Source: Haloarchaeobius sp. HME9146
GTDB lineage: Archaea > Halobacteriota > Halobacteria > Halobacteriales > Natrialbaceae
Direction of reading: 5' to 3'
NCBI RefSeq assembly: GCF_025399835.1
Contig: NZ_JAODVR010000001.1
Location: forward strand, 1,054,001-1,118,000
Length of the DNA: 64,000 bases
Part shown: piece by piece, positions 11,559 through 31,304 of the stretch
How the letters are laid out: every line of letters starts with the position of its first letter
Numbering within the stretch: the stretch's first letter is position 1
Translations under genes and position numbers: made by a program
The notes under the pieces: generated by a model
Told to the model about the DNA's origin: nothing
Database searches by the model: none
Seen by the model: only the letters and a program-made list of their open reading frames with translations

Positions 11559-13781
11559 TTACGTCTCCTCGGCGACGACCGCGTTGTCGTCGGTACCGCC
11601 GAAGGCGACCCACTCGTCGTCGGTCTCATCGCTCCGGGCGGTGGCGGGCCCGAAGGTGTAGGTCCCGGTGTTCGAACTCCCGCTGGGGGCCTCGACGAGG
11701 TAGCGGACCGTCCGGGCGTCGTCGGCCGGGTCGACGGTCGCGTCGAAGTGGACGTACTGGACGTCACCCGCCTGCTCGACGTGGCGCACGTCGGGCGAGT
11801 ACTCGGTGAGGACGGTCCACTCGGCCGGGACCGTGTCCCGAACCTCGGCCGTGTGGCTCACCGCGCCGACGGTCACCTCGACCTCGTTCGTCTGGCCGCC
11901 GGTGAACGTCGAACCGTCGTCGTCCCGGGAGCCGGCCACCGAGAGCCACGTCGGCGTGTCCGCGTCCACGAGGTCGGTCTCGTGGAACCGTGCGAAGTCG
12001 CCCGTCTCGGCCCGGCGGACCGCGGCCTCGGCGTCGACGAAGCCTGCCCCGGCGTTCCAGGGGGTGTAGGCCGTCTGCAGGTCGCGGGCCGTCGCCTCGA
12101 CGGTGTTGATGACCTCGATAGGGTGCGGGTCGTACCCGTTCTGCCGGGCCGCGTCGATGACGAGGGCGCAGACCCCGGCCGCGTTCGGGCAGGCCATCGA
12201 GGTCCCCGTCATCGGGGTGTAGTACGGCTCGGTGTCGGGTTCGAGCGCGTCCAGCGAGTCGGTCGGGCCGACGGTGGCCATGATGGAGTCGCCGGGGATG
12301 GCGACGCCGGGGCGGTAGAGGCCGACGGGCCGGTAGCGGGTCGGCTCGCCACCCAGCTCCTCGATGCCCTCGTAGTCGATGGTGTACGAGACCGTGACCG
12401 AGACCACGGGTTCGACCTCGACGTAGTACGTCTCACCGCCCGCGATGTCGGTCGTCAGGGTCCGGTGCTGGTGGACCACCTCCTCACCCATCTGGGCGAT
12501 GACCGGCCCGTCGCGGGACCCCTCGTGGACCGAGACGCGGACCTGCTCGCCGTCGGGCTCGATGTCGAGCGTCAGTTCCAGCATATCGGCGTTGGCCGGG
12601 GCTTCCCACTCCCAGAAGTCGCTCTCGGTCTGCGCGTCCGTCGTCGCCGCCGGCCCGACCTCGCCGGTCCAGGTCCCCACGTCCACGAGGAACTGGCCGG
12701 AGTCGACCGTGGCGTGGTAGCGCCAGAGTCGCCAGAGGGCGGTCGCGCGGTCGTAGTTGGTCTCGCGGTCCTCGTCGGGGGTGCGCCCCCGCGAGGAGAA
12801 GTCGGTGACCGCCTGCTGGTCGTTGGTCGCCGCGACACAGAGCACGTGGGGTGCCTTCGCGAACCGCGAGAGCGTGTCGGCGTCGGGCCCCGAATTGCCG
12901 GCGGCGAAGACGGGGACGATGCCCTCGGTGAAGGCCTCCCACGACGCGACGTTGACCGGGTCGTTCGGGTTGTACCGCACGTCGCGGGCGACGCCGTAGG
13001 AGTTCGACACCACGTCGGGGTCGAAGTCCACGTCCGGGTCGCGGGCCCGCATCAGCATGTGGTCCCACGCGCCGACGACGTAGGGCAGGTACACCGCCGT
13101 GTTCGTCGAGTAGACGGACAGCCGGGCACCCGGGGCATTCCCACGATACTGGCCGTCGCTGGCGCTCCCGTCCCCCGCGATGATGCCCGAGCAGTGGGTC
13201 CCATGGCCGAGGTCGTCGGTGTCGGCGCTGCCCCCGAGGTCGAGCCACTCGGCGTCTCGCGATTCCAGGGGCTCGTCCACCCACTGCCAGTTGGATTCGA
13301 GTCGTCCTTCGAAGTCGGGATGCGGGCCGCTGAAGCCGGAGTCGATGACGACGGCGTCGACCGAGGAGCCGTCGTAGCCGAGCTCGTCCTGGACCACGTC
13401 GACCCCGGTCAACTCGCGGGAGTCGTCGGTGAACCACTCGAGTTCCTCGGCCTTCTTGATGCGCCGGACCCCGTCCCAGTCGGCCACCGTGGTCAGCTGG
13501 TCCGGCGTCAGCGCGGTGTAGGTCATCGGCAGTTCGCGGTACTCGTGTTTCCCGACCTGCAGGTCGAGGTCGTCCAGCCGGCCCATCGACTCGCGCGAGT
13601 CGAAGACGACGATGCCCTCGATGGGGGCGTCGCCCGAGAGGTCGAAGGCGTCGTCGAGGGTGCTGGTGTCGGTTTCGGCGGCTGCAGTGCCGATGCCGCC
13701 GGCGAACGGGAGCGCCGCACTCCCGGCGAGGACGCCGAGTCCGTGCAGGACGGTCCGTCTGTCGAGTGTGTCGTGTGTCAT
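11559..13781 (-). CDS. Tat-exported S8 subtilisin-like serine protease with internal insertion and shared C-terminal module
   Basis: A 740-residue secreted subtilase. The Tat signal is LDRRTVLHGLGVLAG (residues 6-20). Catalytic residues are all present: D147 in VVIDSG, H193 in GHGTH, oxyanion N296 in AAGNSG and S528 in TGTSMACP. Between N296 and S528 lies an insertion of about 150 residues (333-485) with TYYVEVEP-type strands resembling a bacterial pre-peptidase C-terminal domain. Residues 612-740 carry the same module as the propeller and the largest subtilase. Processing at a propeptide (about 36-115) is expected. The neighbour at 13816 is a close paralogue 34 bases away. Confidence 0.92.
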   Translation of the reverse strand: MTHDTLDRRTVLHGLGVLAGSAALPFAGGIGTAAAETDTSTLDDAFDLSGDAPIEGIVVFDSRESMGRLDDLDLQVGKHEYRELPMTYTALTPDQLTTVADWDGVRRIKKAEELEWFTDDSRELTGVDVVQDELGYDGSSVDAVVIDSGFSGPHPDFEGRLESNWQWVDEPLESRDAEWLDLGGSADTDDLGHGTHCSGIIAGDGSASDGQYRGNAPGARLSVYSTNTAVYLPYVVGAWDHMLMRARDPDVDFDPDVVSNSYGVARDVRYNPNDPVNVASWEAFTEGIVPVFAAGNSGPDADTLSRFAKAPHVLCVAATNDQQAVTDFSSRGRTPDEDRETNYDRATALWRLWRYHATVDSGQFLVDVGTWTGEVGPAATTDAQTESDFWEWEAPANADMLELTLDIEPDGEQVRVSVHEGSRDGPVIAQMGEEVVHQHRTLTTDIAGGETYYVEVEPVVSVTVSYTIDYEGIEELGGEPTRYRPVGLYRPGVAIPGDSIMATVGPTDSLDALEPDTEPYYTPMTGTSMACPNAAGVCALVIDAARQNGYDPHPIEVINTVEATARDLQTAYTPWNAGAGFVDAEAAVRRAETGDFARFHETDLVDADTPTWLSVAGSRDDDGSTFTGGQTNEVEVTVGAVSHTAEVRDTVPAEWTVLTEYSPDVRHVEQAGDVQYVHFDATVDPADDARTVRYLVEAPSGSSNTGTYTFGPATARSDETDDEWVAFGGTDDNAVVAEET

Positions 13782-13815: not shown

Positions 13816-15264
13816 CTACGGTTCGGTGAGGGTCACGTCAGCGAAGGTCGCGAGGTCGCCCGATTCGGCCCGGGAGACCGCGGCCTCGGCGTCGACGAAG
13901 CCCGCCCCGGCATTCGCGGGGTTGTAGTCGCTCCGGGCCTCGTACGCGGTCGCCTCGACGGTGTTGAGGACGGCCATGGGATCGGGGTCGCCGTGGCCGT
14001 TCTGGCGGTGCGCGTCGATGACCAGCGCGGCGATGCCCGCCGTGACGGGGCAGGACATGGAGGTCCCGCTGATGGCGGCGTAGTACAGTGAATTGTCGGG
14101 CGCGGTCGCCTGGAGTGCGTCGGCCGGCGACATGGTGCTGTTGACCTGGTTGCCGGGGGCGGCGACCCCGTTGCGGTAGAGGCCGACCGGCCCGCTCGAA
14201 CTCCCCGAATCGTAGTACTCCTCGAGATTCGCGAGGGCGGTCTGGCGGTCGTAGTTCGCCCCCGTCGAGGCGGCGCGAGCCCGCGAGGAGAAGTCCGTGA
14301 TGGCCTTCTGGTCGGTGGTCGCGGCCACGCTCAGGACGTGTGGAGCCTTCGCGTAGTCGTTCAGGGTGTCGTAGTCCGGCCCGGAGTTCCCGGCCGAGAT
14401 GACGGGCAACAGGCCGCTGTCGAAGGCGGTCCAGGTCGCGGTCTGGAGCGTCCCATCGGGGTTGTAGTCGTCGGCGCTGGCCGCGCCGTAGGAGTTCGAG
14501 ACGATGTCCACGTCGGCGACGTGATTAGCGAGGATGTGGTCGTAGGCCGCGGCAGCCTTCAGGATGCTGACGGCCGCACCCGAGGAGTAGACGGTGAGGG
14601 CCGCACCGGGGGCCATCCCGCTGTCCTCGCCGTTGACGGAGCCGTCGCCGGCGATGGTGCCGGAGCAGTGGGTCCCGTGGCCGATGTCGTCGGTGTCGAC
14701 GAGGGTACCGCCGTCGACCCACAGCGTCGGGTCCCCGAGGGGGTTCCCGGCCCACTGGTAGTTGTGTTCGGCGGCTTCGATGAGATCGGGGTGGTCGCCG
14801 TCGAGCCCGGAGTCCACGACCGCGACGTGGACCGAGGAGCCGTCGTAGCCACTATCGTTCCGGACCGTGTCGACACCCGTGACGTCCCGTGCGTCGGCGT
14901 TGTGGTAGTCGAGGTCGCGGTTGCGCTCGACGTAGCGGACCGCGTCCCAGTCCGCGACGGTCTGGAGCTGCGAGCCGGTGAGCAGGGTGTAGCCGACCGG
15001 GAGGACGTCGAAGGCGAGGTAGCCCTCCGCGAGGTCGAGCGTGTCGAGCCGGGAGACGGCCGCGTTCGAGTCGAAGACGACGAGCGCCTCCTGGAGGGTG
15101 TCACTGGTCAGATCGAAGGCGTCGTCGAGGCGGTCGCCCGTCGCGCCTGCCGCGCTCCCGACCCCGAAGGGGAGGGCCGTCGCGCCTGCCAGCCCGGCCG
15201 TCGCCGTGAGCAGTGTTCGTCGGTCGAGTTTCGGTACGGTCTCGCGTGTCGTGTCGTCTGTCAT
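13816..15264 (-). CDS. Tat-exported S8 subtilisin-like serine protease, compact paralogue
   Basis: A 482-residue subtilase with Tat signal KLDRRTLLTATAGLAG (residues 12-27). The triad is complete: D151 (VVDSG), H196 (GHGTH), oxyanion N293 (AGNSG) and S402 (SGTSMSCP). It is closely related to its 740-residue neighbour along the catalytic core and in the final VDAEAAV-RAE segment, but has only a short loop where the neighbour has its 150-residue insertion. It ends at TLTEP, just where the neighbour goes on into the C-terminal module. The stop is a clean TAG, so this is a naturally short version or a truncation. The ATG at 15264 is chosen because the Tat motif sits close behind it. Confidence 0.92.
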   Translation of the reverse strand: MTDDTTRETVPKLDRRTLLTATAGLAGATALPFGVGSAAGATGDRLDDAFDLTSDTLQEALVVFDSNAAVSRLDTLDLAEGYLAFDVLPVGYTLLTGSQLQTVADWDAVRYVERNRDLDYHNADARDVTGVDTVRNDSGYDGSSVHVAVVDSGLDGDHPDLIEAAEHNYQWAGNPLGDPTLWVDGGTLVDTDDIGHGTHCSGTIAGDGSVNGEDSGMAPGAALTVYSSGAAVSILKAAAAYDHILANHVADVDIVSNSYGAASADDYNPDGTLQTATWTAFDSGLLPVISAGNSGPDYDTLNDYAKAPHVLSVAATTDQKAITDFSSRARAASTGANYDRQTALANLEEYYDSGSSSGPVGLYRNGVAAPGNQVNSTMSPADALQATAPDNSLYYAAISGTSMSCPVTAGIAALVIDAHRQNGHGDPDPMAVLNTVEATAYEARSDYNPANAGAGFVDAEAAVSRAESGDLATFADVTLTEP

Positions 15265-15282
15265 GGGTAGGGTATCGATGGT

Positions 15283-15295
15283 GTGTCGAATCGCT
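15283..15295 (-). promoter_or_regulatory. 13-base motif shared upstream of two array genes, copy 2
   Basis: This is the second copy of gtgtcgaatcgct (as read on the + strand), 18 bases upstream of the compact subtilase start. See copy 1 at 11522-11534. A shorter match, tctcgaatcgac, occurs near 18369 upstream of the largest subtilase. Confidence 0.35.
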
Positions 15296-15448
15296 GTCGT
15301 CTCGGTGCGCTCCCCTGGTCGCCCGTCGCAGAAAGGGGGAAGGGGGATGGTGGCCGCCGGGTCGACCACCACGTACAGTCAGTCCCTCGCCGCCGCCGTC
15401 GCCGGTTGCAGAGCGGGGCTGGTCGCCCCGTGGTGGACCCTCTCTGAT

Positions 15449-15530: not shown

Positions 15531-18329
15531 TCAGGTGGACTGGGCGACCACGTAGTTGGTCTCGCCGGTGCCCGACACCGCGACCCAGCCGCGTGCTTCG
15601 CTCGGCTTGACCTCCTGCGGGCCGAACTGGTAGGCGTCCGAGGCCGAGACGTTGTCCGGGGCCTCGGCGAAGTAGGTGTAGCTCGTCTCGGTGTCGGCGG
15701 TCGCGGTCTCGGTGAAGTAGACGTACTGCACGCCGTTGCTCACCTCGACGCGGTCCACGTCGTCGGAGTAGTCCGTGAGGACGGTCCACGAGGTCGGAAT
15801 CACGTCCCGGACCTGGCTGTCTTCGGAGGGGTTCGCCGTCAGCGTGACCTGGTTGGTCTGGCCGCCGGTGAAGACGGAGCCGTCGTCGCTCCGGGTGCCG
15901 GCGACGAAGAAGCCGTCTTCGACCGAGACGTCGAGCGTGCAGTGTGCCTGCACGTCGTCGCCGTTGACCGCGCCGGGGACGTCCACGAGCTTCGCGACCA
16001 CGTAGAACGTCCGCTCCTCGCTGTCCCGCGGGAGCGAGACCGTCGCGCTGGCGTCACCCTGCAGGCCCTGTGCCCGGGCGACGATGTTGGGTTCGCCGTA
16101 CTGCGCCGGCTGCTCGGCGTCGTAGACGAACAGGTCGATGTGGGGCGTGCTCTTCGTCTGACCCTTGTTGCCGCCGGAGTAGTAGTCGAAGCTCACGCTC
16201 GCCTCGACGGTGCCGGGGCCGGCCTGGACGTAGCCCGCGACGGCGCGGCTGTCCTCGGGCAGGTTGAGGCCGAGCACCTCGTCGGAGCTACCCGAAAGCG
16301 GGCGAGTGACCGCGTCGACCGCGGCGTCGGCGTTCACGCGACCGAAGCCCTCGTAGGGGTCGCGCCCGCCGAACTCGTAGGTCGCGGGGTGGGCGCGGTG
16401 GAACGGGGCGGCGGTGAAGGCCGTCTCGCTGGCCGTCGCGAGCAGCACCTGCTTGAGCCGGTACACGTCGTCGAGGTCGGTCTCGGCGGGAGCTGGCAAC
16501 GCGATGCTCGCCGGGGCGTCCTCCTCCATCGCCTGCGAGACGAGGCCCGCCACGCCGGTCGTGAAGGGCGTCGCCATCGAGGTGCCGGCCTTGCCCGTGT
16601 AGTCGCGGATGGGCGGCTGGTCGGACTCCGCGGCGTTCGCGTCACCCGTGAGTGCCGCGTTGATGAGGTCGTCGACGTAGCCACCGGGCGCGCTCACGTC
16701 GGGCTTCATGTACTGGTCGAGTTCGTCCTCGTCGAGCGCCCCCAGGCCGCCGGAGGAGTACGCGCTGAGCCCGTCGAGGGGGCCGGTCGCGGTCACGGAG
16801 ATACACTCGTCCGCGATGGCGGGTGAGCCGTTCCCGTTGGCCGGGGTCGCCGCGTTGCCGGCGGCGGCGCAGGTGAGGATGCCGGCCTCGGCGATGTCCT
16901 TGATGCCGGCCGGAATCGAGTCGAGGATGCCACCCACGGAGCCGAGCGGGAGGCCGCCGACGTAGCCCCACGACATGTTCACGGCACGCATGTTGAACAT
17001 GTCCGCGAAGGCCTCGGCGTGGTCGGCGAGCTGGCCGGTCGGGCCGGAGAGGCCCTGCAGGCCGACGAGGCTCTGGTTCGGTGCGACGCCGGTGTGGAGG
17101 CCGACGGGGGAGCCGGTACGGTCGCCGTTCGTACTCTGCGGGTCGACGAACGCGCCGACGCTGATGGACTCGAGGTCGCCGGAGGAGACGAGTTCGCCGC
17201 CGGTCGCTCGGGCGATGACGGTGTAGGTCCCGGTCTGCTCGGCGGGGGCCTCGACGACGACGTTGTCGGTGATGCCCGAGTCGCTGGTCAGTTCGGCCGA
17301 GTCGAGCTCGTGCCCGTCAGGGCCCTCCAGGATGAGTTCGATGGCGGTCCCGTATGCAGACCCGAAGACGCCTGTGCCGGCGTCGGCCTGGACCTCGTAC
17401 TGGCGGGTGTCGCCCAGCGCGAGTACCTCGCCGGGGGCCTCGGTCGTGACGGTCTCCGGGTCGATGGCGCTGGCACGCCCGGTGCCGCCCATGATGGAGG
17501 CACAGTGGCTCCCGTGGCCGTTCGGGTCGCGTGGCTTCTTGTGGAGGCCGTAGCGCGTCCCCTCGTCGAACCAGCCGACCGTCTTCGGGTCGTCCCCGTC
17601 GGTACCGACGCCCTCGAAGACGACGCTCGGGTCGGCGGCCTCGAACTCGCCCTCGAGCGCGTAGTAGCCCGCCGAGATCTCGTAGTCGGCCGTGACGTTC
17701 AGCCAGGTCTCGACGACGAAGCGGTAGGTGTGGCCCGACTTCACGTAGTTGTCGATGGCCTCGGGCTGGCTGCCGGTCGTCGAGGCGGCGACGCGCTCCC
17801 AGCCGTCTGCCGTCTGCTTGTCGAGGTAGAGTTCGAGGTCCTCGCCGTTCCCGTCGACGTCGCCGGGCGTCCACGTCATCGTCGCGTCGATGCCCTCGGC
17901 GTCGGTCGGCGTGGTGAACTCGTGGGTCTTCGTCGTCGGGTCCGCGAAGGTGCCCGGCCCGATGGTGCCCGAGAAGGACTCGCCCTCGCCGGCGAGTTCG
18001 ACGCGTTCCTGTTCGGACTTCGGGATGACCAGTTCACCGTCGCGGACGGTCGCCCGGACCCCGTTCCAGGGGCCGAGGTCGGGGTGGCGGGCCTCGATAC
18101 CCGAGTCGGTCAGCGCGATGGTGCGGTCCGGCCGCCCGCGATAGCCGCGGTCCCAGACGCGGCTCGCCTCGCGGGCTCGCCAGTTGAAGAAGGTGGGGTC
18201 GAGCTCGCCGGCCGCAGCCGCCGCGGTACTGGCCGCACCCGCCCCGAGCAGCCCTGCTGCGGTGAGTGTGCCTGTCGTCTGGAGGAATGTGCGACGGGAG
18301 AGGTCGGCTGTGTCGTCGTCGCGAGTCAT
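15531..18329 (-). CDS. large Tat-exported S8 subtilase with two insertions and shared C-terminal module
   Basis: A 932-residue secreted protease. The Tat signal is LSRRTFLQTTG (residues 10-20) with an AAASTAAAAA-type cleavage region. The triad is complete but widely spread: D75 (LTDSG), H272 (NGHGSH), oxyanion N492 (AAGNAA) and S584 (AGTSMATP). About 190 residues separate D75 and H272, and another 110-residue beta domain (about 290-400) follows H272; both look like pre-peptidase C-terminal-type inserts. A jelly-roll-like region precedes the shared module (803-932). The start at 18329 has ggagg seven bases before it; the frame extends to 18473, but that would bury the Tat motif at residue 59. 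It is first in the four-gene array. Confidence 0.9.
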   Translation of the reverse strand: MTRDDDTADLSRRTFLQTTGTLTAAGLLGAGAASTAAAAAGELDPTFFNWRAREASRVWDRGYRGRPDRTIALTDSGIEARHPDLGPWNGVRATVRDGELVIPKSEQERVELAGEGESFSGTIGPGTFADPTTKTHEFTTPTDAEGIDATMTWTPGDVDGNGEDLELYLDKQTADGWERVAASTTGSQPEAIDNYVKSGHTYRFVVETWLNVTADYEISAGYYALEGEFEAADPSVVFEGVGTDGDDPKTVGWFDEGTRYGLHKKPRDPNGHGSHCASIMGGTGRASAIDPETVTTEAPGEVLALGDTRQYEVQADAGTGVFGSAYGTAIELILEGPDGHELDSAELTSDSGITDNVVVEAPAEQTGTYTVIARATGGELVSSGDLESISVGAFVDPQSTNGDRTGSPVGLHTGVAPNQSLVGLQGLSGPTGQLADHAEAFADMFNMRAVNMSWGYVGGLPLGSVGGILDSIPAGIKDIAEAGILTCAAAGNAATPANGNGSPAIADECISVTATGPLDGLSAYSSGGLGALDEDELDQYMKPDVSAPGGYVDDLINAALTGDANAAESDQPPIRDYTGKAGTSMATPFTTGVAGLVSQAMEEDAPASIALPAPAETDLDDVYRLKQVLLATASETAFTAAPFHRAHPATYEFGGRDPYEGFGRVNADAAVDAVTRPLSGSSDEVLGLNLPEDSRAVAGYVQAGPGTVEASVSFDYYSGGNKGQTKSTPHIDLFVYDAEQPAQYGEPNIVARAQGLQGDASATVSLPRDSEERTFYVVAKLVDVPGAVNGDDVQAHCTLDVSVEDGFFVAGTRSDDGSVFTGGQTNQVTLTANPSEDSQVRDVIPTSWTVLTDYSDDVDRVEVSNGVQYVYFTETATADTETSYTYFAEAPDNVSASDAYQFGPQEVKPSEARGWVAVSGTGETNYVVAQST

Positions 18330-18624
18330 GTCACGTCCTCCCAGTGCGGAGACTCCCTGTTCAAGCCGCGACCAAATGTCTCTCGAATCGACAGCTTCGG
18401 TCGCCGAGTCCGCCGTCGATTCCGTCGCTATCCCCTTCGAGTCCTGTGGTTCTCGTCTGTCGTCGTGTCCCATGGTGGTCCATCCCGAACGAGGACGATG
18501 GCCTCAAAAGGGATTGTGACAAACCCATCCAAATGAGGGTCTCAGGGTCTGAGGGGGAAGAAAACGATGCCAGCCGAATCGGTAACAGCCACAGACCATT
18601 GTCGACACCGACACCCTAACCTGA

Positions 18625-20577
18625 TTAGGTACTGCGCGCGTCGTCGCCCTCGAACAGGCTCTCGAGCAGCTTGCGCTCGGCGACCCGGATGTGCTGGTGG
18701 AACGTCGGCGGGGTCACACCGAGGAGGTCGGCCATCTGGTCGCCCGAGGTCTCGCGGGGCCAGTCGAAGAAGCCGGCACGGTACGCCGTCTCCAGCACCT
18801 CCAGCTGGCGGTCGGTCAGCGACTGCTCGATGTCGGCCCGGTAGCCCACGTCGGTCCGCGTCCCGCGCTCGACCTCCCGCTGGGAGAGCAACTCCACCTC
18901 GAGCACCTCCGAGACGCGCTCGAGCACCCGGGAGACGGCAGTGTCGGTGGGGACGTCGGCCACGATGCGACACTCCCCGTCGCTGACCCGGACGGTCCGG
19001 ACCGACCCGCCCACGTCGGCGATGGTCTCGACGACGGAGTCACCGTCGACGACCACCCGGACGAGCGACTCGGCGTCGCGCTCGGCCAGTATCTCGACCT
19101 GTGCGGGAGCCGTCTCGACGAGGTCGTCGAGGTCCTCGAGCGCCTCGCCCCGCACCGCGAACAGCTCCGACACCGACCCATCCGGGTTGCTGACGGTCCC
19201 GGTGAGTTCCAGCGTCGCGTCGGTCTCGTGGGCGATCTGGACGAGGAACTCGTCCGGGTCGGTCACCGCGAACGTCAGTTCGGTGCGCGTGTCGGTCACC
19301 AGCGCCTTGCGCGTCTCGGCTGCCCGGATGGCGTGGCCGACCGTCTCGCCGAGTTCGGCCAGCACCGTTCGCTCCAGCGCTTCGAAGGCGAACGGCTCTG
19401 GCGCGTAGACGCAGAGGCAGCCGTACACCACGTCGTCGTAGACCAGCGGGATGGCCGCCGCGGACTCGTAGCCGTGGTCGAGCGCGGCCCGGCGCCAGGC
19501 GGTCGCGACCGGGTCCTCGGCGATGTTCTGGGCGAACTTGACCGACCGTTCCCGGACGGCGGTTGCGGCGGTCACATCGTCTTCCTGCCGCTCGACGGCG
19601 GCGGGGCGGTCCTCGAGGTAGGCGGAGCCGTCACCCGCCCAGGCGGTCGGCTCGACCCGGCCGCTCTCGGGGTCGTACTCACCGACCCACGCGAACTCGT
19701 AGGGGTCCGCGTCGGCGAACTGGTCACAGAGCGTCTCCTCTATCTCCTCGCGTGAGTCCGTCCGGACCAGCGCGCTCGTCACCCGACGGATGACGTCGTT
19801 GACCCGGTTCAGCGTCTCGAGCCGGTCGGCCTGTGCCTCGAGTTCGGCCTCGCGGCGGCGACGGTCCCGGATGTCCCGCCCGATGCCGCAGATGACCTGT
19901 CGGTCCCCGTCGCCGAGCAATGCGGCCGTGAACTCGTGGGGGCGCTCCTCGCCCGCTTTCGTCTGCATCCGCGCGGTCTCCATCGCCTTGCCCTGCATCA
20001 CGACGCGCCCGATGGCGTTCTCTATCTTCTCGTGCTCGTCTTCCGGGAAGAAGTCGGTCGGGCGCATCTCGCGGATCTCCCGGTCGCTGTAGCCGGTCAC
20101 GGCGGTGAGTTTCCGGTTCCACCGGAGGAAGTTCCCGTCGAGGTCGAAGACGAAGAAGATGTCCCGCAACTCGTCGAGGGCGGCACTGGCCAGGGTCGCG
20201 TGGCTGGCGCTTTCGGGCTGGTTCCGGACGAGGTTGTCGACGGTGGCGGCGAGGTGGTCGCCCCAGTCGTCGGTGGGGTCGCCACGTGGCACCGTCGCGG
20301 CTGCCCCGGAGTCGAGCGCGGTGGTCGCGGCTACGTCGTCCTCGTACACGTAGACGACCGGGGCGTCGTGCCGCCCGAGTGTCGCGACGAGTTCCGTGAC
20401 CGACCGGTCGTCGAGCGAACCACAGACCACGCACTGGACGTGTTCGTCGAGCATGTGCTGTGCGCTGGTGAGGGTCCCGGCGATGTGCGCCTGGAGCTCG
20501 CGGGCGGTGAGACACAGGCCGAGTGCGTCCGCGTCCTCGCCGTCGTCGACCACGAGGACCTCGACCTCACGTGACAT
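18625..20577 (-). CDS. bacterio-opsin activator-type regulator (receiver-like, PAS, GAF, HTH_10)
   Basis: A 650-residue sensor-regulator. Domains in order: a response-receiver-like fold (1-115, beginning VEVLVVDDGED), a PAS domain (about 140-255, with FFVFDLDGNFLRWN and the GIGRDIRDRRRRE end), a GAF domain (about 275-410), a Bat-type ligand domain (about 425-580) and a C-terminal HTH_10 DNA-binding domain starting LTDRQLEVLETAYRAGFF (about 590-640). Such proteins sense light, oxygen or redox state in haloarchaea, but the signal here is unknown. The open frame continues upstream to 21423, but that part is antisense to another gene. The ATG at 20577 starts the receiver domain and faces a divergent regulator. 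Confidence 0.9.
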   Translation of the reverse strand: MSREVEVLVVDDGEDADALGLCLTARELQAHIAGTLTSAQHMLDEHVQCVVCGSLDDRSVTELVATLGRHDAPVVYVYEDDVAATTALDSGAAATVPRGDPTDDWGDHLAATVDNLVRNQPESASHATLASAALDELRDIFFVFDLDGNFLRWNRKLTAVTGYSDREIREMRPTDFFPEDEHEKIENAIGRVVMQGKAMETARMQTKAGEERPHEFTAALLGDGDRQVICGIGRDIRDRRRREAELEAQADRLETLNRVNDVIRRVTSALVRTDSREEIEETLCDQFADADPYEFAWVGEYDPESGRVEPTAWAGDGSAYLEDRPAAVERQEDDVTAATAVRERSVKFAQNIAEDPVATAWRRAALDHGYESAAAIPLVYDDVVYGCLCVYAPEPFAFEALERTVLAELGETVGHAIRAAETRKALVTDTRTELTFAVTDPDEFLVQIAHETDATLELTGTVSNPDGSVSELFAVRGEALEDLDDLVETAPAQVEILAERDAESLVRVVVDGDSVVETIADVGGSVRTVRVSDGECRIVADVPTDTAVSRVLERVSEVLEVELLSQREVERGTRTDVGYRADIEQSLTDRQLEVLETAYRAGFFDWPRETSGDQMADLLGVTPPTFHQHIRVAERKLLESLFEGDDARST

Positions 20578-20731
20578 GCGCCGAGCTAGGAAGGTCAACC
20601 AGTTGAGTGTACTGTTCGACGACGGTCGTGTGACCCGGGTCTGCCACGCTAATCGGGCCACTGGATGCGCTCCCGGTTCCGGCAAATATGGCAACACATT
20701 TGGTTTCGAATGACATGGCCTAGGCAAAGGC

Positions 20732-22141
20732 ATGAACGTCGATAGGGGCGGGACCGGGGGCTCGACGGCGGTGCTGGCGGTCGCCCTCGTGGTCCTCGTC
20801 GTCCTGTTCGGGACGGCCGCCGCCATGACAGCCCCGGTCCCCACCGGAAACCACGGCAGCACACAGCTCTCTTTCGACCTCGCCGACAACGAGACCGATA
20901 TCGTCGATGGCACGGTGGACGACACCACCGACACGACCGGCGACACCACGGAGGAGACCGTGGATGACACGACGAACACGACTGACGACACGACGAATAC
21001 GACCGACGACACCACGGAAACCGTGGAGAACACGACCGACGACACCGTCACCGCGTCCGGGTCGCTCTCGACCGACGTGACCACCGGCGACACCACGGCC
21101 TCGACCGACACGGACGCGACGCTCGACGACGGTCTCACGACGAACACCTCCGGTGAGACCTCGGGCACGGTCGACGGGTCCGGGAACGCGAGCCTCACTG
21201 CCGAGGAGGACGCGGTCTCGCTCTCGACCGACGCCAGCGTCGAGTCCGTCTCACTGTCGGCGGGTGTCGTCGTCCCCGTCGAGTCCTTGCTGACGGTGCT
21301 CGAATCCAGCGACCCTGCCACCGGGGAATCGACCGACAGCACCAGCCGCCGACTCGACCAGGCGGCGGCCCGCGGCGGCCAGTTCGCGCTCGGGTCGACC
21401 GGGGAGCAATCCGGCGCTGACACGGGCGGCCTCGACGGAACCGGCTACCAGCGCGCGGAAGCCGGCGGCGATGCAGGCTCCAGCGAGCCCGGCGGCACCC
21501 CCGGACCACTCCAGTCGGTCCCTGGCCCGGTCCAGACCGGCGTCCTCGTCGGGTCGCTGGCGGCTGGTGGCGCGGCCGCGACGCGGTGGCGGTCGATACT
21601 TCGTTGGCTCCGGAACGCGGTCGAGGACTCGCCGCTGGCGGCCGTGCTGCGCTACAGCCGGTACGACGGCTCGGACCCGCTGGCGCACGACGACCGCGAG
21701 ACCATCCACCAGGTCGTGACCGACGCCCCCGGTGTCTACCTCTCGGCTATCAGCGAGGCGTCGGGGGTCCCGCTCTCGACCGTGCGTCACCACGTCCGTG
21801 TTCTGGAGGAGGAGGACCTCGTCACCAGCGTGAAGATAGAGGGCAAGCGCCGGTACTTCCCGGCCGATACCGGCGACGTGGAACTCCACGCCGCCCTGTC
21901 GAACCCGTCGCGGGCCGCGATTCTCGAGCGGCTGGCCGAGACCGAGGGCACCCGGGTCGGCGAACTCGCGGAGGCCCTCGACCGCGACCCGAGCACCCTC
22001 TCACATCACCTCGGCCGCCTGGAAGACGCGGGGCTGGTCGAACGCGAACGCGAGGGACGGTCGGTGCTGAACCGGCTCACCCCGTCCGCCAGGGACGGGC
22101 TGGCGGCGGCAGCGGCAGAGCCATCGCTGGCAGACGATTGA
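20732..22141 (+). CDS. membrane-anchored regulator with two winged-helix domains
   Basis: A 469-residue protein. A membrane helix lies at about 11-33, followed by a long Thr/Asp/Ser-rich, probably exposed segment (about 50-230) with DDTTNTT-type repeats. A second hydrophobic stretch follows near 265-285 and then a cytoplasmic part. That part carries two winged-helix domains: ISEASGVPLSTVRHHVRVLEEEDLV (about 340) and VGELAEALDRDPSTLSHHLGRLEDAGLV (about 410). The layout fits haloarchaeal membrane-bound helix-turn-helix proteins that could couple a surface signal to transcription. It is divergent from the Bat-type gene, with a 154-base gap between their starts. Confidence 0.8.
   Translation: MNVDRGGTGGSTAVLAVALVVLVVLFGTAAAMTAPVPTGNHGSTQLSFDLADNETDIVDGTVDDTTDTTGDTTEETVDDTTNTTDDTTNTTDDTTETVENTTDDTVTASGSLSTDVTTGDTTASTDTDATLDDGLTTNTSGETSGTVDGSGNASLTAEEDAVSLSTDASVESVSLSAGVVVPVESLLTVLESSDPATGESTDSTSRRLDQAAARGGQFALGSTGEQSGADTGGLDGTGYQRAEAGGDAGSSEPGGTPGPLQSVPGPVQTGVLVGSLAAGGAAATRWRSILRWLRNAVEDSPLAAVLRYSRYDGSDPLAHDDRETIHQVVTDAPGVYLSAISEASGVPLSTVRHHVRVLEEEDLVTSVKIEGKRRYFPADTGDVELHAALSNPSRAAILERLAETEGTRVGELAEALDRDPSTLSHHLGRLEDAGLVEREREGRSVLNRLTPSARDGLAAAAAEPSLADD
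20905..21060 (+). repeat. Thr/Asp-rich low-complexity coding repeat
   Basis: Degenerate units of 12-15 bases, mostly gacgacacgac and acgaatacgac variants, encode DDTT/NTT motifs in the exposed segment of the membrane-anchored regulator. They encode likely O-glycosylated spacer sequence. They are not direct repeats with unique spacers and do not form a CRISPR array. Confidence 0.6.
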
Positions 22142-22161
22142 GCGCTGCGCGAGAACGGTGA

Positions 22162-22815
22162 TTACTGGTTCGGCAGGTCGTCCGCGAGGGTCTCGCGGAC
22201 CAGCGTCTCCATGCCTCGTCGGAGTCGTTCGGAGGCCGCCTGACCGGAGACGCCGACGTCGGCACCCAGCCCGCGGAGCGTGGTCTGGCGCGGGATGTCG
22301 AAGTAGCCGACCTCGACGGCGCGAGTGAGTATCTCCTTCTGTGCCGGGGTCAGGTCGGCCGCGTTGTCGTCCTGATCTATCGTGTCGCTGTGGATGGATT
22401 CGACGGTGGGTGTGAGCCCGACCTCCTCGCAGACGTCGCGAAACCCGGCGAACGACTCCCGGTCCGGGAACAGCGTCTTGACGGTCCAGCCGTCGCCGTC
22501 GCTCGTCGCGTTGAGGATGACCCCGTCACGCTCGATGGCGGCGGTGTACGCCTTCGCATCGGCGATGCCCTCCGGACACGTCACACGGTAGAGCCGACGA
22601 GCGTGTTCCGTCGCGAGGACGGTGCTGTCGACGACGGTCGGGTCATCGTCCAGCGCGTCCTCGAACGTCTCGAAATCACCACCGCTCACCCAGAAGACGA
22701 CGCGAAGAGGAATCGTTCCAGTGGTGTCGAACTGTTCGACCGAGGCCTGCATCCCGTCGGGGACAGAAAGTGCGTGTTGCAGAAGTTTGGAGTCGAGATT
22801 GAAACGAACGAACAT
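22162..22815 (-). CDS. HTH_10 family transcription regulator
   Basis: A 217-residue member of the haloarchaeal bacterio-opsin-activator family without sensor domains. The N-terminal part (1-150) is the Bat-associated beta/alpha domain, with VRFNLDSKLL and FVSGGDFETF-like strands. The C-terminus is an HTH_10 domain starting LTPAQKEILTRAVEVGYFDIPRQTTLRGLG (about 154-183). It is convergent with the membrane-anchored regulator, the stops lying 20 bases apart. Immediately upstream of the start is an AT-rich stretch (22816-22832) that is too close to be a standard TATA box for this start, so a downstream start cannot be excluded. Confidence 0.85.
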   Translation of the reverse strand: MFVRFNLDSKLLQHALSVPDGMQASVEQFDTTGTIPLRVVFWVSGGDFETFEDALDDDPTVVDSTVLATEHARRLYRVTCPEGIADAKAYTAAIERDGVILNATSDGDGWTVKTLFPDRESFAGFRDVCEEVGLTPTVESIHSDTIDQDDNAADLTPAQKEILTRAVEVGYFDIPRQTTLRGLGADVGVSGQAASERLRRGMETLVRETLADDLPNQ

Positions 22816-26809: not shown

Positions 26810-28912
26810 TCATTCCTCGTCCGCGAACCGCCGCCAGAGGCCGACGGCTGCAGCGGCGAGAGCGGCGAGACCGCCCATGAGCATCCCAGCCGGGGAGGAC
26901 AACTGCGTCGCCGCGTAGTTCAGTGGATTCGTGCCCGGCGTGCCACCGCTGGCCGCGGCACCCGCGCCGGTGGTGCCCGTCCCGGTTCCCGAACCGGACG
27001 CGGTGGTGGTCACCGCGGTCGTCCCGCTCGTCGTTCCGGTGGTGGTCGTTCCGGTGCCACCGGTACCGCTGCCCGTGGTCTTCCCTCCAGTGCTGGTTCC
27101 ACCGGTGGTCTTCCCTCCAGTGCTGGTCCCGGGGTCTGCCGTAGTGGTGCCAGCGTCGGCGGTAGTAGTGGTGGTGCCGGCGTCGGTAGTCGTGGTGGTG
27201 GTGCCGGCGTCGGTGGTAGTGGTGGTGGTACCGGCGTCGGTAGTCGTGGTGGTGGTGCCGGCGTCGGTGGTAGTGGTGCCCGATTCAGTGGTGGTGGTAC
27301 CGGACTCGGTAGTCGTGGTGCCCGATTCAGTGGTCGTCGTCCCCTGTTCGGTAGTCGTGGTGCCTGACTCAGTGGTCGTCGTCCCCGGCTCGGTAGTCGT
27401 GGTGCCGGACTCAGTGGTAGTGGTACCGGAGTCGGTGGTCGTCGTCCCCTGCTCGGTCGTCGTCGTCCCCGATTCGGTAGTCGTGGTGCCCGAATCAGTG
27501 GTGGTGGTGGTACCGGAGTCGGTGGTCGTCGTGCCCTGTTCGGTCGTGGTAGTACCGGACTCAGTAGTCGTCGTCCCCTGCTCGGTCGTGGTACCCGAAT
27601 CGGTCGTGGGTTCCTGCGTCGTGGTGGTTCCCTCCCAGTCCTCTTCCGAGTCGGTGGTTCCCTCGGGCTCCTGGCCGATTTCGCCGGTGTCTGGGTCCTC
27701 CGACCAGTCCATGTTGTGCCGGCACTGCTCCGCGAGGAAGCGGATGCCGACGTGGCAGGAGTCGGTCTGGGTGACGTTCACCGACTTGGTGACGTCCAGG
27801 CCGTCGACGATGTCCATGTAGCCTCGCTGGCGGAGTTCGTCGTTGAACGTCAGGCCGAGGCGGCCGTCCTGGTCGGTGACCGGATTCCCCTCGACCAGGA
27901 CGTTCTTGATGGGGAGGTCGGTGAAGCCGAGGCGGCCCGGCTCGTCGAACTCCTTGCACGGGAGGAACCAGTTCATCACGTAGCAGTGGACGCCAGGGGT
28001 GAAACACCACTGCTTGGGGGTCTCGTCTTCGGTCACGGGCGAGACCGGCGGGATGACGACCCGGCCGTCCCCGGTCGGCCCGAACTGTTCGAGCCAACCG
28101 GACATCGACCCGGCGTAGAGGATGTCGCCGTCCTCGGTCGCGAGACCGAAGGGGTTCGTGTCGCCGTCGTCGTCCGCGTCGGTGGCGAGGTTGTCGCAGT
28201 CGGGGTCGGTCGAGACCACGACGTACAGGTAATCACAGAGCTCGCCGAGGAGGTCGGTGAGGTCACCTGCGGCCTTCTCCGGCTCGATGCGTTTCTTCTC
28301 CTCGCTCCGGGGCAGGGGGTCGCCGTTGCTGTCCTCGCGGACCAGTTCGGCGAAGACGAACGCCGGGTTGCCACAGACGTGCACGCTGAACGTGGTCTCT
28401 CCCTCGTCGTACGGTTTCACGTCGACCAGGTCGATGAACATCCCCCGTGGGCCGTCGATGAAGCCCGGGTGATACACGCCGGGTGCCTCCGCGGTCCCGC
28501 TCTGTTCCGTCTCGAAGTCGTCGGGCAGCAGGGCCGAGATGTCCCTCGCGTCCGGGAGCTCGCAGACGTCGGCGAACACGTCGGTGCTCCCGGTGACGAG
28601 GTTCCCCCACATCTCGTGGGAGGGCGCCTCGCCGGTCGCGACCGACCGAATCGCCGGGGCAGCGGCAATCTCGTACGTCTTCGAGGTCCCGGCGACGAGC
28701 GCGGGTGGCACCTCCCGCTTGAGCTCGTATCTGTCCCAGGGTTTGTACGTCGAGCGATAGTCGAGTAGCAGGTCGACCCGGCCGCTCTGGTACCAGCCCT
28801 CGATCGCCTCGCTGTCCCTGAAGAATGCGGTGGTGCCGAGACCTGTCCCTGCCCCGGCCACACCGACCACTCCCAACCCTGCCAATACCCGTCGCCGTGA
28901 AAGTTGTGTCAT
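26810..28912 (-). CDS. SipW-type exported surface protein with Thr-rich stalk and C-terminal anchor
   Basis: A 700-residue cell-surface protein. The signal SRRRVLAGLGVVGVAGAGTGLG (residues 5-26), followed by TTAFF-D, has the look of SipW-dependent haloarchaeal precursors. Residues about 35-420 form a Cys-containing globular part with Asp-rich stretches that may bind calcium. Residues about 425-600 are a GTTTTESG/EQG/DAG repeat stalk, likely heavily O-glycosylated. The end is one membrane helix (about 670-690) with positive residues (WRRF) and an acidic tip, as in anchored S-layer or archaellum-like proteins. I see no enzymatic motif. A TATA-like sequence (ttattattg on this strand) lies about 50 bases upstream of the start. 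Confidence 0.84.
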   Translation of the reverse strand: MTQLSRRRVLAGLGVVGVAGAGTGLGTTAFFRDSEAIEGWYQSGRVDLLLDYRSTYKPWDRYELKREVPPALVAGTSKTYEIAAAPAIRSVATGEAPSHEMWGNLVTGSTDVFADVCELPDARDISALLPDDFETEQSGTAEAPGVYHPGFIDGPRGMFIDLVDVKPYDEGETTFSVHVCGNPAFVFAELVREDSNGDPLPRSEEKKRIEPEKAAGDLTDLLGELCDYLYVVVSTDPDCDNLATDADDDGDTNPFGLATEDGDILYAGSMSGWLEQFGPTGDGRVVIPPVSPVTEDETPKQWCFTPGVHCYVMNWFLPCKEFDEPGRLGFTDLPIKNVLVEGNPVTDQDGRLGLTFNDELRQRGYMDIVDGLDVTKSVNVTQTDSCHVGIRFLAEQCRHNMDWSEDPDTGEIGQEPEGTTDSEEDWEGTTTTQEPTTDSGTTTEQGTTTTESGTTTTEQGTTTTDSGTTTTTDSGTTTTESGTTTTEQGTTTTDSGTTTTESGTTTTEPGTTTTESGTTTTEQGTTTTESGTTTTESGTTTTESGTTTTDAGTTTTTTDAGTTTTTTDAGTTTTTTDAGTTTTTADAGTTTADPGTSTGGKTTGGTSTGGKTTGSGTGGTGTTTTGTTSGTTAVTTTASGSGTGTGTTGAGAAASGGTPGTNPLNYAATQLSSPAGMLMGGLAALAAAAVGLWRRFADEE
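27139..27640 (-). repeat. Thr-rich tandem coding repeat
   Basis: Units of 24-27 bases encode GTTTTESG, GTTTTEQG and GTTTTDAG-type octapeptides and nonapeptides about twenty times. Third-position differences between units show that they are diverged rather than freshly copied. They form the stalk of the surface protein. With no unique spacers between units, they are not a CRISPR array. Confidence 0.9.
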
Positions 28913-29426
28913 TCGAGTCTCTCCCCCCTTAGCTGCCCCGCGGTCATGGCATCTATCAATAATAAGGGGAGAAGACAGGTTACCTATGGTGCGCTTCGAT
29001 GGCCGAAACGATTCGTTCGAGCGCCCGTACGCAGACCGTACGCCGGTCCGGGGCCGGGCGGGAACCGGCAGGAAACGGGAGTACGCGCTGGTATGGCGTC
29101 ATTACCAGGCCTTTGAACAGTCACGACCGCAGACCCGTCGCCACCTCGCCGGGAAACTGGCGACTCGCGCGACCATGGCACATTCTGGGTGGGTACGGTT
29201 TCCGTCTTCCTCGACGCTGCGCTCGTGACTGGTGGGCCTCACGCTGTTGCGTGAGCTTTCGTCTCACCAGGTCTGGGACCGGCACTATCGAGTTCGACGG
29301 GCGCACTCGGAGAAGCAGGTAAGTATCCATTCTCTGCCTTGGTTAGAGTGGGCTCTAACAGGGCTCTACTGTCCAATATCTGCTCTGTTCGTCTAGAGTT
29401 ATCATCTAGCAGCACTATAGTTATAC
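28913..29426. other. 514-base gap between the surface protein and the halolysin-type protease
   Basis: This divergent gap holds a TATA-like ttattattg on the minus strand near 28957-28967 for the surface protein and TATA-like sequences near 29396-29425 for the protease. Between them lies a stem-loop element at 29229-29270. I see no convincing coding frame; the open frames are Arg/Ser-rich shadows. Confidence 0.5.
29229..29270. other. two-tier stem-loop of unknown role
   Basis: An inner hairpin ctcacgc-tgtt-gcgtgag (29238-29255, seven perfect pairs, four-base loop) is enclosed by a second stem ctggtg/caccag (29229-29234 with 29265-29270). It could be part of a small RNA or a terminator. Its place in the middle of a divergent gap does not suit a terminator for either neighbour. 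Confidence 0.3.
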
Positions 29427-31304
29427 ATGGATTCATCGTTAGTCAGCCGGAGAGACATCCTACGAGGAGTGAGCGTCGCAGGAGTCGGCCTCGCCGGGAT
29501 GACCGGAGTTGTAACTGCACAACCGACTGGCGAGTACATCGTCGTCTGCCGGTCGTCGGCTGGTGTTCGCGCCGCGCAACGCCGGGCCAGCCATGTGCGC
29601 CACGCAGCAGTGGGGATGGGCCGGTTCGGGACCGCGGTCGTCGGGCGGTTCCCCGAGCAGGCACTCGCGGGTCTCGCCCGCCACCCCGGCGTGCGCTACG
29701 TCGCACCTGATGCCGAGGTTCACGCGGTCGGCGAGGTCACACCGTGGGGTATCGACGCCATCGGTGCGACCGCCGCGCACGACGCAGGGAAAACGGGTGT
29801 CGGGTCGCACGTGGCGATCCTCGACACCGGTATCGACCCGGACCACCAGGACCTCCAGGCGAACCTCGGCGAGGGCGTCAACTACTCCGACGACCCCGAC
29901 GGCGACGGGAACGGACACGGGACGCACGTTTCCGGGACGGTCGCCGCCGTGATGAACAACGGTCTCGACGTGGTCGGTGTGGCTCCCTCGGCCACGCTCC
30001 ACGCCGTGAAGGTCCTCGGTGACAGCGGGAGCGGGTCGTTCTCGGACATCATCGCGGGCATCGACTGGGTCACCGGCAAGGCAGCGACCGACTGGGGCGC
30101 GCACACGACGGTCATCAACATGAGCCTGGGCGCGAAGCTGCACCCCCGGAGATTGTACGCGAGCACCATCCAGGCGATCTGCGAATCGTGTCAGTCCGCC
30201 TGGGAGGCGGGCGTGGTGGTCGTCGCGGCCGCCGGCAACGACGACGACGACGCGGACAAGCACTATCCCTCCGCCTGCGACAGCGTCATCGCCGTCGCGG
30301 CGACCGACTCGAACAACCAGCGGGCCTGGTTCTCGAACTACGGGAGCACGGTCGAACTCGCCGGCCCTGGTGTTGGCGTCCTCTCGACGGTTCCCCCGGA
30401 GCTCAACGACGGCAAGACGACCGCGTCGTACTCCGGCACGTCGATGGCGAGTCCACACGTCGCCGGGGCCGCCGCACAGCTGCTCGCGACCGGCGCGTAC
30501 ACAAACGCCAGCGCCCGCCAGCGACTCCGTGACACCGCGACGGACCTGGGTAGCGCCGGCTGGGACCAGTACTACGGATACGGGCTGGTGAACGTCGCCG
30601 ACGCGCTCGGGTTGGGTGACGGTGGCGGCGGTGGCGAGGACAGCACCGGGCCGACGTTCGATGCCGGGCCGACCGCGACGGACACGGTCGACGACGACGG
30701 GACGACCGGTGACTTCGCCGTCGATGCCGGCGATACGGTCAGGGTCGAAGCGACCGTCTCCGACGCCAGTGGAGTGGCATCGGTCGTAGCCGACGCGAGC
30801 GCGTTCGGCGGGCCGGGCTCTCTCGACATGATCGACGACGGAACCGGGACCTACGCCGGGGAGTTCGTCGTCGGCGCAACTGGGTCGGTTACGGTCGCGG
30901 TCGGCGAGAGTGCGACCATCCCCGTGACGGCCACCGACGCGTCGGCCGGCGCGAACACGACGACGGCACAGACCAACGCGTTGACCGTCGAGGACAACAG
31001 CGGTGGCGGCGGAACCGGTGACCCGACCGTCAGCATCGGTCAGGTCTGGAACGAGAACACGAAGAACCCCCACGCGCAACTGCGGGTCGAGTACTACTCG
31101 GAGAACGCGGCGTTCGTCGAACTGACCGTGACGCGGGACGATACGGGCGAGACGAAGAGTTGGACCGACACGGCCCCCACCAGCGGCCAGACCGAGACGA
31201 GTCCATCCGGCGTCTTCGACTTCCACAAGGGCCAGGGCAGCTCGTACACGGTGGCGGCCAGCACCGACGGCAGTGGTAGCGACACCGTCACCTTCCAGTC
31301 GTAG
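29427..31304 (+). CDS. Tat-exported S8 halolysin-type serine protease
   Basis: A 625-residue secreted subtilase. The Tat signal is VSRRDILRGVSVAGVG (residues 6-21), cleaved near TAQ; an inhibitor propeptide (about 35-100) follows. The catalytic residues are D133 (ILDTG), H164 (GHGTH), oxyanion N271 (AAGN) and S339 (SGTSMASP), spaced as in classical subtilisins with no insertion. The C-terminus has two beta modules: an FN3/Big-like stretch (about 410-530) and a final domain of about 90 residues, both joined by Gly-rich linkers. It differs from the array proteases at 11-18 kb and lacks their shared module. It probably degrades extracellular protein. Confidence 0.93.
   Translation: MDSSLVSRRDILRGVSVAGVGLAGMTGVVTAQPTGEYIVVCRSSAGVRAAQRRASHVRHAAVGMGRFGTAVVGRFPEQALAGLARHPGVRYVAPDAEVHAVGEVTPWGIDAIGATAAHDAGKTGVGSHVAILDTGIDPDHQDLQANLGEGVNYSDDPDGDGNGHGTHVSGTVAAVMNNGLDVVGVAPSATLHAVKVLGDSGSGSFSDIIAGIDWVTGKAATDWGAHTTVINMSLGAKLHPRRLYASTIQAICESCQSAWEAGVVVVAAAGNDDDDADKHYPSACDSVIAVAATDSNNQRAWFSNYGSTVELAGPGVGVLSTVPPELNDGKTTASYSGTSMASPHVAGAAAQLLATGAYTNASARQRLRDTATDLGSAGWDQYYGYGLVNVADALGLGDGGGGGEDSTGPTFDAGPTATDTVDDDGTTGDFAVDAGDTVRVEATVSDASGVASVVADASAFGGPGSLDMIDDGTGTYAGEFVVGATGSVTVAVGESATIPVTATDASAGANTTTAQTNALTVEDNSGGGGTGDPTVSIGQVWNENTKNPHAQLRVEYYSENAAFVELTVTRDDTGETKSWTDTAPTSGQTETSPSGVFDFHKGQGSSYTVAASTDGSGSDTVTFQS

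Follow-up and report, generated by a model that had tools for sequence, protein, structure and literature searches.

The subject of this study is a 64,000-nucleotide stretch of the haloarchaeon Haloarchaeobius sp. HME9146 (contig NZ_JAODVR010000001.1, positions 1,054,001 to 1,118,000, forward strand; hereafter the window), and within it a protein that combines hydropathy-predicted membrane segments, a threonine-rich stalk and two DNA-binding domains in one chain. The reading that we consider fairly probable is that of a membrane-anchored one-component regulator which controls a regulon of exported proteases and surface proteins through a candidate operator. In the mechanism we propose, the N-terminal part would be exported as a disordered, probably glycosylated stalk rich in Thr, Asp and Ser, a Gly/Ala-rich second segment would anchor the protein, and two winged helix-turn-helix (wHTH) domains would lie in the cytoplasm, where the pair would bind a direct repeat of about 20 bp set against the TATA box of target genes. 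In the window's genome the one strong site is at the promoter of S8a, which heads an array of exported subtilases; among relatives, the predicted targets are subtilases, surface proteins and an M14-like carboxypeptidase, and in some cases the regulator's own gene. The stalk would in this way convey the condition of the cell surface, and the wHTH pair would set the expression of exported proteases and surface proteins. The architecture, charge bias, synteny, motif, promoter position and co-occurrence described below are computational observations.

Architecture of the stalked protein and its family

The gene and the parts of its product lie in the window as follows.

20732..22141, plus strand: gene for the stalked tandem wHTH regulator, 469 aa, member of a family of 113 distinct loci
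20762..20824, plus strand: N-terminal hydrophobic segment, residues about 11-31, a predicted export signal or anchor (Kyte-Doolittle peak 2.79)
20834..21517, plus strand: Thr/Asp/Ser-rich stalk, residues 35-262, with six N-X-S/T sequons
21524..21580, plus strand: Gly/Ala-rich second hydrophobic segment, residues about 265-283 (Kyte-Doolittle 1.08), then an Arg-rich helix, with a charge bias
21653..21682, plus strand: YSRYDGSDPL signature, found in loose form in 99 of the 113 family rows
21689..21883, plus strand: wHTH domain 1, PF24266 HTH_HVO_0163_N, residues 320-384 (E=1.5e-14)
21896..22045, plus strand: wHTH domain 2, ArsR/HTH_20-like, residues 389-438 (E=3.6e-21)
22133..22138, plus strand: C-terminal Asp-Asp

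The original prediction had described one chain with an outside Thr-rich segment and a pair of DNA-binding domains, and the sequence architecture bears this out. Both domains score above their curated cut-offs (HTH_HVO_0163_N, 54.2 bits against 31; HTH_20, 75.3 bits against 27), and AlphaFold models two well-defined winged helices with a predicted local distance difference test score (pLDDT) of 96-98, a level that holds over most of domain 1. The closest solved structures are the ArsR/SmtB regulators CzrA and SmtB, which are the best Foldseek matches of domain 2, the alignment spanning one domain. The stalk is composed of 21.5% Thr, 13.6% Asp and 11.8% Ser, and its glycosylation is a prediction only. 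The protein has two hydrophobic segments, at residues about 11-31 and about 265-283, where one had been supposed; the second is the likelier anchor. In the 99 rows (of 113) with a recognisable signature, a stretch of 30 residues preceding YSRYD carries on average 4.2 Lys/Arg versus 1.35 Asp/Glu, and the 25 residues ahead of the second segment carry 0.9 versus 4.3. By the positive-inside rule this bias would place the wHTH part in the cytoplasm, and we infer a topology with both DNA-binding domains inside the cell, into which the short family members described below do not fit.

An ortholog in a congener (G003) is 69% identical over residues 27-469 and has the same architecture; this, together with the recurrence of the gene in 113 distinct loci, argues that the frame is not a chance open reading frame. 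The search of 61 genomes with the stalked protein returned full-architecture relatives plus many wHTH-only matches, and the family was then extended by named contigs (45 loci) and by 391 genomes of the class, among which 146 hold a match at E<=1e-25, soluble relatives included. Removal of duplicates reduced 142 loci with the gene to the 113 used here (one further locus, L047, had none). Many of the weaker wHTH relatives are open frames of about 170-300 aa.

The shared plan of this haloarchaeal family consists of an export signal, a Thr/Asp/Ser-rich stalk, a Gly/Ala-rich second segment, an Arg-rich juxtamembrane helix, a YSRYDxSDPL signature and two wHTH domains. A scripted hydropathy scan found a first and then a second hydrophobic stretch in 103 of the 113 rows, separated by anything from about 125 to 1270 residues (in a few rows the open frame extends upstream of the gene). 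Moreover, an alignment of 14 relatives has YSRYD..DPL ahead of the first wHTH and a C-terminal Asp in every row, the conservation of the signature in alignments A1 and A2 being partly a product of selection, since rows were picked with a YSRYD-containing pattern. Helix stretches STxRHH and PSTxSHHL are also conserved. Of the 113 rows, 100 terminate in Asp (among them 52 in DD, 37 in AD and 7 in SD), compared with 9.7% of 401 background genes; the tail preceding it varies across the family, and a degron or a docking tail were raised as possible roles. Additionally, six short members (L086, which is from Halocatena marina, L089, L091, L188, L197 and L200), with frames of about 250-330 aa, combine a classical-looking export signal with a YSRYD-type signature and two wHTH domains, and these together with one unlabelled row form one branch of the family tree (92/94).

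A direct repeat at promoters of exported proteins

Three further features belong to the proposed regulatory connection.

15531..18473, minus strand: S8a, a 980-aa subtilase, putatively exported by the twin-arginine (Tat) route, candidate target
18513..18538, minus strand: candidate operator CCTCATTTGGATGGGTTTGTCACAAT, lying 39 bp upstream of the start codon of S8a, with a position weight matrix (PWM) score of 37.8; a training site of the matrix
20682..20717, plus strand: footprint GCAAATATGGCAACACATTTGG... in the intergenic region between the Bat gene (see below) and the stalk gene, nearly identical in a congener; a possible variant site

Abutting the TATA box of S8a and of other, mostly exported, protein genes is a direct repeat of about 20 bp, TTTGGACGGKTTTGTCA, its half-sites TTTGGAC and TTTGTCA having their starts spaced by 10 bp. 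Palindromic operators in the promoters of stalk genes had been considered beforehand, and the direct repeat was then read by eye as an identical string upstream of four loci in which S8a diverges from the regulator (L078, L156, L163 and L166). These four and the S8a promoter of the window made up a five-site matrix, which, scanned over 6.4 million strand-bases with duplicate loci included, gave upper-list scores of 20-42 in many other loci, whereas no score in 60 shuffled loci exceeded 16. Written in the direction of the gene, the 28-site consensus is ACGTTTGGACGGKTTTGTCANAA, again with two TTTG-based half-sites 10 bp apart, a spacing that suits a chain with two wHTH domains. A TATA-like CCTTTTA follows the motif within a few bases in most sites (judged by eye), and the median distance from motif to start codon is 35 bp (interquartile range 31-42). 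Sites scoring at least 18 occur in 36 of the 113 family loci, against a shuffled per-strand maximum of 15.0, and in five loci the regulator gene itself stands behind such a site, 77-176 bp away.

Within the whole genome of the window, the S8a-promoter site is the sole match at one mismatch or fewer. The stretch 20676-20701, which overlaps the footprint between the Bat and stalk genes, scores 5.3 with the PWM and is not significant alone. As for the dyads, CGTA-N-TACG is present in 15 and TGAC-N-GTCA in 10 of 110 upstream regions of the stalk family, versus 3-5 for the commonest dyads in five crude shuffles.

The motif and the regulator family occur together. At one mismatch or fewer, TTTGGAYGNNTTTGYCANAA has 127 matches in 65 of the 391 genomes, and a reversed-pattern control has 16 matches. 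The regulator family (E exponent -40 or lower) is present in 61 of these 65 genomes versus 99 of the 391 overall (Fisher p=8e-40, uncorrected for kinship). In 15 mixed genera, 33 of 57 regulator-holding genomes have the motif, as against 1 of 78 regulator-free ones (Cochran-Mantel-Haenszel p=2.5e-9, hand tally). Furthermore, 21 of 22 S8a promoters from regulator-holding genomes score 20.7-42.4, whereas all eight from regulator-free genomes score 4.3 or less and are without the motif (0/8), a contrast in which several of the high scorers and none of the negatives belonged to the training set. That the stalked protein is itself the binder of this motif is what we infer, together with the sign of the regulation and the stimulus.

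Genes behind the motif encode mostly exported products: 92 of 116 distinct predicted targets were classed as exported (Tat or Sec/membrane), versus 85 of 361 background genes, by a crude classifier that put at least five clear Tat proteins into its class 'none'. The 116, in which near-copies found in related species and a number of probable non-genes are counted, were drawn from 30 loci, 40 fetched stretches and the family loci, not from all 127 matches. They include S8 subtilases, a Tat-signal M14-like carboxypeptidase and a purple-acid-phosphatase-like protein (the latter two assigned by Pfam), large surface-type proteins (by eye) and the regulator itself. Proteins of 216 aa account for eight of the 116, and the one run against Pfam is HVO_0513_N plus HTH_10. 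In many Natrialbaceae (L305-L321 and others), the motif precedes a gene whose conserved, exported product is about 380-450 aa long (AYAGTHVAFDVEGDAVTDYRVGGE). The single member of this group that was scanned gave no Pfam match and ends in what we take to be a PGF-CTERM-like tail. In L307 and L308, two genes for such proteins lie near each other.

Subtilase linkage and neighbouring genes

The stalk gene lies among the following neighbours.

18625..20577, minus strand: Bat-type sensor/regulator gene, 650 aa, codirectional with and upstream of S8a
13816..15372, minus strand: S8b, a 518-aa subtilase with a Tat-like signal
11559..13781, minus strand: S8c, a 740-aa subtilase with a Tat-like signal
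22162..22815, minus strand: gene for a small BAT-HTH_10 protein, 217 aa (HTH_10 3.7e-14, BAT 8.5e-10), probably an incidental neighbour
29421-31301, plus strand: fourth subtilase, a 627-aa frame on the 3' side of the stalk gene

S8a, S8b and S8c thus lie downstream of Bat on the same strand, at lower window coordinates. The Peptidase_S8 domain of S8a reaches 108 bits with PF00082 (cut-off 21.8); a putative Tat signal shows as an SRRTFLQ motif, and PF10518 gives 19.1 bits, below its cut-off of 22.7. Twin-arginine signals could also be seen in the other S8 genes inspected, those of L078 (S8a) and L159 included, with the exception of frames that were cut or started upstream.

The original prediction had placed the regulators next to a protease array, and a tie between the two is supported by the shared candidate operator and by the family at large: in 16 of the 113 loci, subtilases stand 5' of the regulator gene (one to three genes, within about 9 kb), and many of the 16 hold two or three. 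A first count used S8a and S8b as queries. Repeated with four queries, the count returned these 16 loci again and, 3' of the regulator, a single gene, which is the fourth subtilase of the window itself; S8 types of greater divergence may escape these queries, and the loci are not independent. Chance linkage was considered and rejected: about 565 PF00082 genes in 80 genomes (around 7 each, in a count that omitted G272, G370, G312, G090, G314, G193 and G013) would lead one to expect roughly 4 genes in 113 stretches of 20 kb, and 16 loci were observed. The linked loci are spread over several branches of the family tree, and a group test on that tree counts labelled rows only and is not evidence of one origin.

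Two arrangements recur. In the first, all genes point in one direction, with a gene that we take to be dCTP-deaminase-like followed by S8b, S8c and the regulator (L040, L051, L053, L063 and L174); L159 has both subtilase stretches and one called frame. In the second, S8a diverges from the regulator (L078, L156, L163, L166, L193, L199 and L202), and the window is a variant of this arrangement, with Bat between S8a and the regulator. The presumed dCTP-deaminase-like gene also stands directly upstream of the regulator in several subtilase-free loci (L054-L059, L068 and L092 are those listed). Moreover, in L249 (11997-12710) and L250 (7048-7584) a short, stalkless wHTH relative forms a row with a pair of subtilases and a Tat-type protein of 1064 aa, and there motif-like sites are present at both flanking promoters, those of S8a and of the gene for the 1064-aa protein.

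All three regulators that had been proposed are encoded within 18625-22815. The Bat protein has PAS_4 (E=2.4e-15), GAF_2 (1.3e-17), BAT (7.5e-30) and HTH_10 (1.2e-20) domains, all above the cut-offs of their Pfam profiles. Its gene is divergent from the stalk gene, 154 bp separating the two start codons, and the small HTH_10 gene is convergent with the stalk gene. As one conserved unit, the trio did not hold up: the small HTH_10 gene occurs in 6 of 6 congeners, and the stalk gene, S8a and a close Bat ortholog in 2 of 6. Specifically, S8a and the stalk gene were found in G000 and G003 and, at the thresholds used, in none of G001, G002, G004 and G005, the only trace in G004 being a 174-aa relative of the stalked protein (8e-30). 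Within the genus, only G003 has a close Bat ortholog (83% identity), and elsewhere the nearest Bat-like proteins reach 34-38%. Peptidase_S8 matches number 18 in the window's genome, 19 in G003 and 5-9 in each of the remaining four. Bat plausibly belongs to the locus. The small HTH_10 gene seems an incidental neighbour, and its membership in the unit was dropped: all six congeners have the gene, and its promoter is without a site among the twelve best of the window. A second Thr-rich protein near the locus, of 700 aa with long GTTTTESGTTTTEQ repeats (26810-28912, minus strand), is probably exported.

Alternative readings and known systems

Several observations weigh against a stalked regulator of surface proteases acting through the repeat. 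Subtilases adjoin the gene in just 16 of 113 loci, and several motif-bearing S8a copies lie far from the regulator gene. The within-genus tally omitted five motif-free mixed genera (g52, g54, g72, g74 and g77, with six regulator genomes), which turns 33/57 into 33/63 and leaves the statistic unchanged, and some of the sites scored by the 28-site matrix had also served to train it. No motif at one mismatch or fewer was found in 21 of 81 genomes with a strong family match (E exponent -58 or lower), some of which hold divergent-clade members or short forms. L238, the one exception among the 22 S8a promoters, has a family relative (E=3e-53), one without a stalk, and an S8a gene, and no motif. Conversely, four genomes (G155, G163, G288 and G296) have the motif without the regulator; the sites in G155, G163 and G296 are without ordinary promoter context and look like chance. 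In addition, the second membrane segment of the window copy is weakly hydrophobic, and the short relatives have an export signal without a second membrane segment or Arg-rich helix.

The protein may act on DNA while anchored at the membrane or after being cut free, the two routes that the original prediction had named. It is conceivable, if rather unlikely, that the DNA-binding part is released by regulated intramembrane proteolysis (RIP) coupled to the very proteases it controls, with the exported subtilases or another site-1 protease cutting the stalk, a site-2 or rhomboid protease cutting the second segment, and the freed wHTH part moving to promoters. The low-complexity stalk and small-residue membrane segment, the linkage to exported subtilases and the terminal Asp in most of the family would all fit such a release, as would the M50 and rhomboid genes of the genome; however, each of the 14 control genomes has both families too, which deprives them of any force as evidence, a cleavage site was not identified, and most family loci are without an adjoining subtilase. 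An elaboration of this scheme, which we regard as unlikely, is a feedback loop in which subtilases or surface damage would act on the probably glycosylated stalk, an intramembrane protease would free the wHTH part, and the fragment would set both the subtilases and a wider surface regulon via the direct repeat.

The motif might instead be bound by another regulator, the Bat or the HTH_10 protein, the stalked protein being merely a co-regulated neighbour or a further target. The motif does stand before family genes themselves in five loci and before 216-aa HTH_10-type genes (the eight predicted targets noted above), and Bat homologs lie near S8a in five of eight regulator-free loci (L233, L239, L241, L242 and L245), an adjacency that is a lead only, as Bat-like genes are numerous. 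Yet the regulator-free S8a promoters, Bat-linked ones included, are without the motif, in regulator-holding Natrialbaceae the motif precedes an exported-protein gene, and within genera it tracks the stalk family, and we consider binding by another protein quite unlikely. It is highly improbable that the product of the stalk gene is a surface protein, with wHTH domains that are exported as well and have lost their role in transcription: the short members, with their export signal and no second segment, taken literally would export their DNA-binding part, and the second segment of the window copy is weak, but most rows have an Arg-rich, acid-poor juxtamembrane segment, the helix stretches STxRHH and PSTxSHHL are conserved, and the family co-occurs with a promoter motif.

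As a membrane-anchored one-component regulator, the stalked protein would resemble several known systems in part. Bacterial regulators of the ToxR/CadC type have an OmpR-type N-terminal wHTH and a folded periplasmic domain; they, too, combine a DNA-binding domain with an extracytoplasmic sensor in one membrane protein, whereas the protein described here has a C-terminal tandem of ArsR-like wHTH domains and a low-complexity stalk. Proteins with the PF24266 domain HTH_HVO_0163_N share the first wHTH and differ in that the stalk lies outside this Pfam domain of about 70 positions. Among archaea, ArnR and ArnR1 of Sulfolobus acidocaldarius are membrane-bound one-component HTH regulators of surface structures, and the stalked protein would belong to the same broad type; they differ in having an N-terminal HTH, a putative HAMP and sensing domain and two C-terminal membrane segments (PMC6396743), and in having neither an exported stalk nor a tandem C-terminal wHTH of the present kind. 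RIP of anti-sigma factors and of SREBP (compare PMC10202637) likewise involves a membrane-tethered regulator with an exposed segment; for the stalked protein, cleavage is a proposal.

On the side of the targets, the halolysin SptA of Natrinema sp. J7-2 offers the nearest comparison. Positive and negative elements next to the transcription factor B recognition element (BRE) and TATA box govern sptA, and the regulatory proteins for halolysin expression 'remain to be determined', according to that study (PMC6085418). S8a resembles sptA in encoding an exported subtilase and in having a candidate element next to its TATA box; it differs in being a 980-aa subtilase and in having a candidate regulator. 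No description of the stalk family or of the motif was found in the literature searched, which covered few subscription journals and in which the motif sequence was not used as a query; one paper there names HVO_0163. Membrane-bound archaeal one-component regulators are already known; a type that joins an exported mucin-like stalk to a tandem C-terminal wHTH, with a conserved Asp end and a shared candidate operator for an exported-protease regulon, did not appear in the literature searched.

The control of extracellular proteases in haloarchaea is an open question, to which this work offers a candidate regulator, a candidate 20-bp operator and predicted targets across many genera. If the stalk is a sensor, it would mean that archaea can read the state of their cell surface by a low-complexity, mucin-like segment.

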